Positions 18,574 to 20,858 of a stretch of DNA of 64,000 bases are shown here, piece after piece. The DNA comes from Pseudoduganella plicata. Its GTDB lineage: Bacteria > Pseudomonadota > Gammaproteobacteria > Burkholderiales > Burkholderiaceae_D. How positions within the stretch are numbered: position 1 is the first letter of the stretch; every line of letters begins with the position of its first letter. A program made the translations under genes and the position numbers. The stretch is from the NCBI RefSeq assembly GCF_004421005.1, contig NZ_CP038026.1, positions 4,650,001-4,714,000 of the forward strand. Reading direction: 5' to 3'. The notes under the pieces were generated by a model. That model had not been told where the DNA came from. It saw only the letters and a program-made list of their open reading frames with translations, and made no database searches.

Positions 18574-19032
18574 CTAGTTCTGCAGGATGGTGATCTTGCC
18601 GTCCGGTTCAAGGAAGGCGCATTTCATCTTGTGCAGGGGACAGTCGGCCTCGCGCAGCGCCTGCTCGACGTCGCCTTCGGCCACGCGGCATTTCTTGACG
18701 ACGTCGGTGAAGACCTTGCCGTCACGGCCCAGCAGCACGGGCGACCCGTCGACCAGCTCCGCGATCTTGCGGCTGCGCGAGGTGGCGACGGCGATGATGA
18801 CGTTCAAGGCGATCAGCGTCGACGCGAGAATCAGTCCGCCCTGGATGGAATTGTCGCCACCGTTGAGCGAATTCGACACAGCCTCGCTCAGCAGCATCAC
18901 GATCAGCAGATCGAACGGCGTGAACTGGCCAATGGTCCGCTTGCCCGTCAGCCGCACCATCACGAGCAGAAAAGCATAAATGATGGTGCCGCGGGCAATA
19001 AATTCCCACCAGGGCAAATCCATATCGAACAT
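18574..19032 (-). CDS. DUF421 (YetF-like) membrane protein
   Basis: The 152-residue product has an N-terminal membrane part (about three helices within residues 5-80, including ARGTIIYAFLLVMVRLTGKRTIGQ, PFDLLIVMLLSEAVSN and GLILASTLIALNVIIAVAT) and a C-terminal soluble DUF421 domain (about 85-152). The RLTGKR and FDLLIVMLLSEAVSN segments are family marks. The ATG at 19032 has GGAGGT at the right distance; the ORF extends ten codons further upstream without a better site. The molecular function of DUF421 proteins is unknown. It is convergent with rfaE2, two bases apart. Confidence 0.88.
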   Translation of the reverse strand: MFDMDLPWWEFIARGTIIYAFLLVMVRLTGKRTIGQFTPFDLLIVMLLSEAVSNSLNGGDNSIQGGLILASTLIALNVIIAVATSRSRKIAELVDGSPVLLGRDGKVFTDVVKKCRVAEGDVEQALREADCPLHKMKCAFLEPDGKITILQN

Positions 19033-19110
19033 GCGACCTCCGCCGTAGAGCCGAAAGCTCACTTATACGGCGTCTAGTGCATTTATGCCAACACGAATGC
19101 GTCCAACCGC

Positions 19111-19938
19111 TCAGCCCGTGACAACATCGGGGTCAGTCACAAAAACTGTCACAGACTGGTCCGTAATGGCGTATCGCCTGTCAGCCAGCGCCCTGTCAAC
19201 CGTACTGAGCGAGACGCCGAACTGCCTGGCGATCTGGCTGCGCGGGTAACGTCCGCGGTGGAACGCTGCGGCCATTGCCGTTCGCCTGTCGGCATACAGG
19301 GTATGAAACGCTTCCAGCGGCAGCCTTGGCCCATCGCGCGTGGTCGACCCGTTGTCGCGCTCCCTGTGGTGGCGTAGCGGGTCGGCGGCGCCGATACCTG
19401 CACGGATGAACCCGTCGTAATGCGACGTGCCGTGCTCTTGCGTGCTGGCAAACATTTCGAGCACCACGTCCCGCGTAAGCCAGTCCGGTACGACGTCGAG
19501 GGCGCAATAGTAGCGGTGGCTGCTCCAGCGCCAATCGGCTGGCGCAGCCACCAACCTGGCCCGAACGGGATTGAGTGCGATATATCGTGCCACCTCGAGC
19601 AATTGCTCATCCTGTTCGACAAGCACGGCATGGTACCGACCCTGGATGAGGTGGCCTGCCTGGCCATGCCGTTGGTTGTAGCGTCTCGCATAGCTGCCGT
19701 TCAGGTAATGCATCGCCTGCGACAGGTTCGGTTCGCGCGTTTCGATCAGCAGGTGAAAGTGATTCGGCATCAGACAGAATGCGTGGATCACGACCTTGAA
19801 ACGGCCGACGACGACGGCCAGCGTGTCTTGCCAGATCAGATGGTCCTTGTCGTCCGCAAAGATGTTTGCCCGTCGATTGCCCCGCGACGTCACGTGGTAC
19901 AGGGCTCCGGCGAGAAGGGTACGGTGAGGTCTGCTCAT
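19111..19938 (-). CDS. REP-associated tyrosine transposase (RAYT, Y1_Tnp)
   Basis: The 275-residue protein is a Y1 (HUH) endonuclease related to IS200/IS605 transposases. The HUH pair is in CLMPNHFHLLIETR (about 55-68), the N-terminal GALYHVTSRGNRR is typical of RAYTs, and the catalytic tyrosine is probably in LNGSYARRYNQRHG (about 79-92). A C-terminal segment (about 228-262) resembles a small helix-turn-helix, SQIARQFGVSLSTVDRAL. Its 3' end reads through one of two 34-bp inverted repeats that flank the gene. It sits as an island between the DUF421 gene and a small membrane-protein gene. Such proteins are linked to spread of REP palindromes. Confidence 0.92.
   Translation of the reverse strand: MSRPHRTLLAGALYHVTSRGNRRANIFADDKDHLIWQDTLAVVVGRFKVVIHAFCLMPNHFHLLIETREPNLSQAMHYLNGSYARRYNQRHGQAGHLIQGRYHAVLVEQDEQLLEVARYIALNPVRARLVAAPADWRWSSHRYYCALDVVPDWLTRDVVLEMFASTQEHGTSHYDGFIRAGIGAADPLRHHRERDNGSTTRDGPRLPLEAFHTLYADRRTAMAAAFHRGRYPRSQIARQFGVSLSTVDRALADRRYAITDQSVTVFVTDPDVVTG
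19119..19152 (-). repeat. Left inverted repeat of the RAYT unit
   Basis: This is the mirror of 20008-20041. Read on the minus strand it begins GTGACAGTTTTTGTGACTG and ends CCCCGATGTTGTCA. It differs from the right copy at two positions. It codes the last residues of the transposase. Confidence 0.9.
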
Positions 19939-20007
19939 CCATGCACGTTAGCATCTGACTCGGTTGCGGCCATGATGACCGTCAACGCTCGCTAATGAGC
20001 TGAGTTC

Positions 20008-20041
20008 GTGACAGTTTTCGTGCCTGACCCCGATGTTGTCA
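20008..20041 (+). repeat. Right inverted repeat of the RAYT unit
   Basis: Read on the + strand it begins GTGACAGTTTTCGTGCCTG and ends CCCCGATGTTGTCA. Its last three bases are the complement of the TGA stop of the membrane-protein gene at 20039-20377, so the element end touches that gene. Confidence 0.9.
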
Positions 20042-20377
20042 GTGCCGTTTATCGACTGGAAAGATGGCGAAGACGATTGCTACGGCTGCGAGAATGAGGG
20101 TTGTTGCCAGGTGGCCGGCCATCGTGAGCCAGAATCTGCCCTGCTGGAGCTGCATCGAATACGTGTGGTGGGTGCCGTACTTGTTGAGCGAGGTTGTCAC
20201 GCCAGTCGCGAGGCCGTCGTAAAGCAGGCAGCATCCGAGCCCGCAGCCGATCGTGGCGATCGCTACCAGCAGCCAGTTCAGCGATCTCATCAGCATGGCC
20301 CGCCCGCGGGCCGGCGCTTGCGGGCGTTGATCGACTTTACGTTTGGCCCGCTTGCGTGGAGGAAGCTTCGACGCCAT
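20039..20377 (-). CDS. Small membrane protein of unknown function
   Basis: This 112-residue protein has a basic N-terminus (MASKLPPRKRAKRK), a transmembrane helix at about 33-53 (LNWLLVAIATIGCGLGCCLL) and a second at about 86-106 (MAGHLATTLILAAVAIVFAIF). I do not recognise the family. The ATG at 20377 is the first reasonable start; the ORF continues 22 codons into the trmL 3' end. It follows trmL by ten bases on the same strand and is probably the last gene of the comF-trmL operon. Its stop codon is formed by the end of the RAYT inverted repeat, so its tail may have been changed by that insertion. Confidence 0.7.
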   Translation of the reverse strand: MASKLPPRKRAKRKVDQRPQAPARGRAMLMRSLNWLLVAIATIGCGLGCCLLYDGLATGVTTSLNKYGTHHTYSMQLQQGRFWLTMAGHLATTLILAAVAIVFAIFPVDKRH

Positions 20378-20387
20378 GTCTGCGGTC

Positions 20388-20858
20388 CTATGCCCCGCCC
20401 GCATACCCCTGCTGCCGCCACGCCTCGTAGACAACGATGGCAACCGTGTTCGACAGGTTCAGGCTGCGGTTGTCCGGCCGCATCGGTACGCGGATGCGCT
20501 GGCTGGCGGGGAAACTTTCGCGGAACGCCGGCGCCAGGCCGCGCGTTTCCGAGCCGAAGACGAACACGTCGCCCGGCTCGAACGCCAACTGCGCAAACGG
20601 TGTCGAGCCGTGCGTGGTCATGGCGAACATGCGTGCCGTGTCCGGTTGCACGTCGGCCAGGAACGCGGCCCAGTCCTTGTGCACCTTCATGCGCGCGTAT
20701 TCGTGATAGTCGAGGCCCGCGCGGCGCAGCTTGGCGTCGTCCAGCGGGAAGCCGAGCGGTTCGATCAGGTGCAGTTGCGCGCCCGTGTTGGCACACAGGC
20801 GGATGACGTTGCCGGTGTTCGGCGGAATTTCGGGATTGACGAGTACAACGTGAAACAA
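20388..20858 (-). CDS. trmL: tRNA (cytidine/uridine-34-2'-O)-methyltransferase TrmL
   Basis: TrmL is a small SPOUT (trefoil-knot) methyltransferase that modifies the ribose of the wobble base in tRNA-Leu. The 156-residue length is exact for the family. Motifs seen are [20 protein letters not shown] at the N-terminus, [10 protein letters not shown] in the middle and [21 protein letters not shown] in the knot. The start is an uncommon TTG at 20858 with AGGAG seven bases upstream; no ATG fits the family N-terminus. It lies downstream of comF on the same strand. Confidence 0.95.

Follow-up and report, generated by a model that had tools for sequence, protein, structure and literature searches.

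The window analyzed here, a stretch of 64,000 nucleotides from Pseudoduganella plicata, contains a TIRtron, i.e., one TIRYT-type HUH/Y1 transposase gene that is bounded on both sides by its own recognition repeat, in inverted orientation. TIRYTs are tyrosine transposases with terminal inverted repeats on both sides, several of which have GGGGWSAS in common, and these repeats sometimes overlap the end of the gene and are dispersed as singles, dimers, and clusters (Di Nocera et al. 2013, PMC3733652). What multiplies is the repeat and not the cassette, probably in trans, because the RAYT gene is missing from the dispersed copies, which consist of single or paired repeats. We consider a TIRtron with trans-dispersed repeats, a mainly fixed cassette, and occasional replacement or relocation of the block to be the likely explanation as a whole. 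It is favored by the matched RAYT-repeat pairs, the dispersal of repeats without the gene, a switch of ancestry at the repeats in one lineage, and the occurrence of similar RAYTs in unrelated neighborhoods. Counting against it, no genome examined carries a duplicate cassette, no clean empty site was found, the outer arms of the repeats do not covary, and the copies at the RAYT gene fold weakly.

The RAYT cassette and its repeats in P. plicata

The RAYT/TIRYT transposase gene (19111 to 19938, minus strand) encodes a protein of 275 amino acids that matches Pfam Y1_Tnp (E = 2.4e-14) and the NCBIfam model REP_Tyr_transpos for REP-associated tyrosine transposases (90.6 bits, with a cut-off of 80), and that carries HFH (HUH motif) at residues 60 to 62. 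Its C-terminal region (residues ~217 to 253) is HTH-like, with matches to HTH_7 (E = 1e-4) and HTH_23 (E = 4.5e-4) that both fall slightly below the Pfam cut-offs. A C-terminal domain of the HTH or DnaA_C type is one criterion for TnpA_Y1 subclass 2.1, to which most TIRYTs, with C-terminal domains of the HTH type, have been assigned (Quentin et al. 2018, PMC6006769). No relative of solved structure was detected by sequence at E 0.01. The RAYT gene is present as a single copy in the genome, and two further Y1 proteins encoded there are just 32 to 35% identical to it over part of the length. Several copies of a different repeat, AAAACCGGTGACAGGCTCCGAT, lie around a second, distant Y1 transposase (locus L033, G000:C1:2209034-2209477), so that the same genome may have a second repeat system.

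The first-pass annotation had described the gene as framed by near-perfect inverted repeats of 34 bp, and this holds. The 3′ arm relative to the RAYT gene (19119 to 19157, plus strand) and the 5′ arm (20003 to 20041, minus strand, 65 bp ahead of the RAYT start) form an inverted repeat of 39 nt that is 90% complementary, within which the best ungapped core spans 34 nt with 2 mismatches (32/34). When a 26-mer from the arms was searched across the window with up to 3 mismatches, only the two arm sites were recovered, with 0 expected from 100 shuffles. The overlaps with coding sequence were likewise correctly described, as the last ~13 RAYT codons are encoded inside the 3′ arm, and the TGA stop (20039 to 20041) of the upstream ORF lies inside the 5′ arm. 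Both arms contain GGGGTCAG (19129 to 19136 in the 3′ arm), which fits GGGGWSAS.

The upstream ORF (20039 to 20377, minus strand) comprises 112 codons for amino acids, has no match in Pfam, and has no counterpart in the compared RAYT-bearing or trmL loci of relatives. It separates the cassette from a tRNA methyltransferase gene (20388 to 20858, minus strand), which from our own reading of its sequence we take to be trmL-like and which forms the upstream border of the locus in 12 species. The downstream border is a YetF/DUF421 gene (18574 to 19062, minus strand), whose real start may be the ATG at 19032. Similarity between species restarts just outside the 3′ repeat, in a conserved yetF leader (19040 to 19100, minus strand; GTGTTGGCATAAATGCA...CGTATAA) with a putative promoter role.

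Each arm is part of an imperfect palindrome of ~50 nt that is dispersed through the genome. In the 5.89-Mb genome, its outer 18-mer, TGACAACATCGGGGTCAG, is found 46 times exactly and another 13 times with a single mismatch. A scan with a 33-nt core yielded 70 copies in 43 clusters, both of which are lower bounds since the scan covered only regions found via the 18-mer. Further copies of the end sequence, which the first-pass annotation had named as support for mobility, are thus abundant. The repeat consensus reads GCCGAGCCCG-TGACAACATCGGGGTCAGGCACgAAAACTGTCA-CGGGCTCGGCCGTAG. For fifty copies, the next one is no more than 200 bp away, and 24 of the 26 close pairs are convergent; the repeats are mostly convergent dimers. 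The profile of the 70 copies shows only a weak GT[AT][AG] at the 3′ side, and the GTAG tetranucleotide is absent from the 5′ side. When folded as single-stranded DNA, consensus copies are strong (z of -7.6 and -12.4) and the two copies flanking the RAYT gene are weak (z of -1.8 and -1.5). Selection for a hairpin, sought as covariation within copies, was unsupported in the variable outer arms, which gave no signal (0.44 for paired vs 0.46 for shuffled partners). Between families, the core stem appears altered on both sides, a comparison made by eye and without a statistical test: it reads GTGACA/TGTCAC in the window family, GTGTCA/TGACAC in orphan copies of species G075 and G066, and GTGTCC/GGACAC in G028. 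In a search of 84,980 species, one genome each, from which records near the window were possibly left out, exact matches to the window family or to its stem-swapped relative were found only in Pseudoduganella buxea. Viral contigs contained no copies of the repeat. The stem-swapped relative (GTGTCAACATCGGGGTCAGGCAC...TGACAC) occurs as orphan copies in species whose RAYT has another repeat, at loci L087, L096, and L098 (G066), L085, L088, L091, and L094 (G075), and L083 (G065).

Occupants of the trmL-yetF locus and of other sites in the genus

Homologues drawn from Pseudoduganella and relatives provided 81 loci, in 72 of which the regions upstream and downstream of the RAYT gene form an inverted repeat scoring at least 20. 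The same score was reached in 17/324 cross-genome pairings, 0/81 shuffles, and 0/77 displaced flanks. The repeats vary between RAYTs, with the GGGGTCA center mostly kept, and the repeat-RAYT-repeat layout recurs at several loci of the genus. An arm starts ahead of the RAYT stop codon, and so overlaps the gene end, at 30/77 loci; the inverted-repeat frame of the window is therefore unremarkable on its own, since a frame with one arm over the gene end is normal in this RAYT subclass. For two genes, L138 (G075) and L058 (G003), the alignment to the window RAYT runs past one in-frame TGA. The G075 gene has its own stop in the overlapping repeat, and the repeat-encoded C-terminus therefore seems free to vary. 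Among the genomes examined, none carries two near-identical RAYTs, the highest identity within a genome being 59%.

A RAYT cassette sits at the trmL-yetF locus in 12 species, including that of the window; in one of them (G093), it follows trmL and yetF was not detected. In G017, trmL and yetF adjoin with no cassette between them, and in G002, G006, and G009, the two genes are separated by other DNA. The RAYTs of this locus are mostly 41 to 56% identical, vs 79 to 97% for trmL, and a single origin of all 12 was not rejected by the AU test (p = 0.158), a further point against the explanation given above. The evidence for exchange set out below comes from the relatives only, with none for the window's own cassette.

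One case is G028. This species groups with G065 and G075 by coxA (93/94), and the three share 93 to 97% identity in trmL and 94 to 98% in yetF. Its RAYT is 47 to 48% identical to those of the sister species G065 and G075 and 72% identical to its counterpart in G066, a more distant species. The RAYT tree places the G028 and G066 proteins together (SH-aLRT 98), and a RAYT clade of G028, G065, and G075 is rejected by the AU test (p = 0.006). On either side of the cassette, informative sites of the G065/G075 type outnumber those of the G066 type (109:33 and 62:21), vs 69:155 between the repeats, and the change of ancestry falls within ~150 bp of each repeat. G028 also carries ~63 orphan repeats of the G065 type beside 41 of the resident type, and no second RAYT of the same class was found there among the homologues recovered. 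The simplest reading of these sequences is that a G065-type cassette was present in the ancestor and gave way to another in the lineage of G028.

The route of such an exchange may have been transposition, recombination within the repeats, or recombination in the flanks. Ordinary homologous recombination via the flanking genes, with the inverted repeats uninvolved, is a possibility we consider rather doubtful as the explanation: a conserved locus does mean that incoming DNA has homologous flanks, but the flanks in G028 show no tract of foreign sequence, and even the sites next to the repeats favor G065/G075 (10:4 over the 150 bp leading up to the repeats and 19:6 over the 150 bp that follow them, both small numbers).

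Relocation was examined in 134 RAYT pairs with at least 62% identity. Both flanks are shared in 64 of these pairs and neither flank, within ~1.8 kb, in 38, which represent far fewer than 38 events since the pairs overlap in members; the remaining pairs give a mixed picture or run into contig ends. RAYTs that are 62 to 83% identical therefore include some in unrelated neighborhoods. These comparisons bear on a second alternative, in which the RAYT is purely domesticated and has been passed down vertically at one fixed site. Protein and repeats would then diverge unusually fast in step, so that apparent swaps are only differences in rate, and the dispersed repeats would be retained because they serve the host, e.g., at transcript 3′ ends. 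The single copy of the gene, its presence at one locus in 12 species, the unrejected single clade of trmL-locus RAYTs, the 64/134 similar pairs with both flanks kept, and the published view of RAYTs (PMC8049555) all agree with this alternative. However, the discordance of G028, its switch of site pattern at the repeats, its orphan G065-type repeats, and the similar RAYTs in unrelated neighborhoods do not, and we regard purely vertical descent as improbable.

The comparison of dispersed sites covered only 1.2 Mb of the G065 genome and 0.4 Mb of that of G028, and the result on shared sites thus comes from few sites. Apart from the RAYT locus, the 1.2 Mb of G065 contain six clusters of G065-type repeats, four of which occupy intergenic positions orthologous to those of the window-type clusters c17, c18, c31, and c35, and a fifth possibly that of c30. 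A rough hand estimate, with insertion limited to intergenic DNA, gives ~0.1 expected coincidences. The shared sites can mean a common target preference or turnover in place, and the data fit both. The other window-type sites hold unrelated palindromes or nothing in G065; the counterparts of c34, c36, c37, and c38 are often unrelated strong palindromes, terminator-like, e.g., GGGGACAGGCACC...GGTGCCTGTCCCC. One intergenic site of the window's genome (L039, G000:C1:4938149 region) also contains apparent remnants of other families, GTGTCCACAACGTTGGACAC and a G028-like copy, in what looks like a layering of successive repeats. Empty sites had been proposed as a further sign of mobility, and no clean one was found in these comparisons, the best candidate, a gap in G028 at the dimer at position 1836276 of G065, keeping a right-arm footprint.

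The suggestion that gene and repeats form a compact unit able to move as one piece is thus borne out in part. The end sequence is multicopy, the layout recurs at several loci of the genus, and the ancestry of the G028 cassette differs from that of its flanks; on the other side, this genome has a single cassette, no near-identical RAYT pair was seen, and the locus is occupied in 12 species. The same structure at the same locus in all relatives, with no further copies, was to have spoken against mobility; occupancy of one locus in 12 species goes some way toward this, but the copies of the ends are many.

A model for repeat dispersal and cassette exchange

Extrapolating from known HUH biochemistry, the transposase would recognize the GGGGTCAG-centered repeat as a single strand, cleave at the repeat edges via a 5′-phosphotyrosine, and spread dimers of the repeat in trans. 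Movement of the cassette would be rare, with inheritance mainly at a fixed site, while the repeat-to-repeat block would now and then be replaced by a foreign block or relocated. After a replacement, the new repeat family would spread and the old one decay. In a broader form of this proposal, which in our judgment could equally well prove right or wrong, the transposase and its recognition repeat constitute a swappable two-part module, such that a foreign block with another specificity fills a fixed slot and the new family takes over, often at the intergenic sites of the old one, leaving orphan fossils.

RAYTs are regarded as vertically inherited single-copy genes (PMC8049555), a view that seems incomplete for the RAYT subclass of the window. 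If the swap model is true, RAYT genes are not merely domesticated, and their persistence is due in part to replacement. Among the RAYTs, the TIRYT branch has been little studied and has no demonstrated mechanism. In this genus, dozens of RAYT-repeat pairs of differing sequence are present at comparable loci, among them at least one natural swap. With such pairs, it can be tested which residues of the protein determine repeat specificity and whether the repeats are mobilized in trans.

Relation to known systems

An ordinary autonomous IS200/IS605 insertion sequence, present here by chance in one copy, would agree with the HUH/Y1 catalytic domain (Y1_Tnp) and the defined ends of the cassette. 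This reading is very improbable and was rejected on the single copy here and the absence of duplicates or near-identical copies in any relative examined; in addition, the RAYT scores only 22.5 vs the IS200 family cut-off of 55, the ends are dispersed without the gene, and the whole unit does not multiply.

The RAYT-REPIN systems of Pseudomonas and E. coli (TnpA_REP) resemble the window element in combining a single-copy HUH transposase with matching paired inverted repeats, and GTAG REPs and REPINs resemble it in that two inverted repeats form one dispersed unit, as in the convergent close pairs described here. Unlike them, the window repeats lack the canonical 5′ GTAG, are centered on GGGGTCAG, and fold weakly at the gene, and those RAYTs are described as vertically inherited (PMC8049555).

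The closest likeness is to the TIRYTs and TIRtrons, a kind already described and little studied, of which the window provides a fresh example. The shared characteristics are a RAYT-type Y1 transposase, long terminal inverted repeats that are distinct from GTAG REPs, the GGGGWSAS motif, an arm over the 3′ end of the gene, and repeats dispersed as singles, dimers, and clusters. A C-terminus of the HTH type may be a further one, the HTH matches of the window protein lying just under the Pfam cut-offs. In contrast to the described cases, the repeat family of the window is new and species-specific, and in relatives the cassette seems to have been exchanged at a fixed locus, which we did not find described in the literature searched. 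The new part is thus the proposed cassette swapping with turnover of repeat families.
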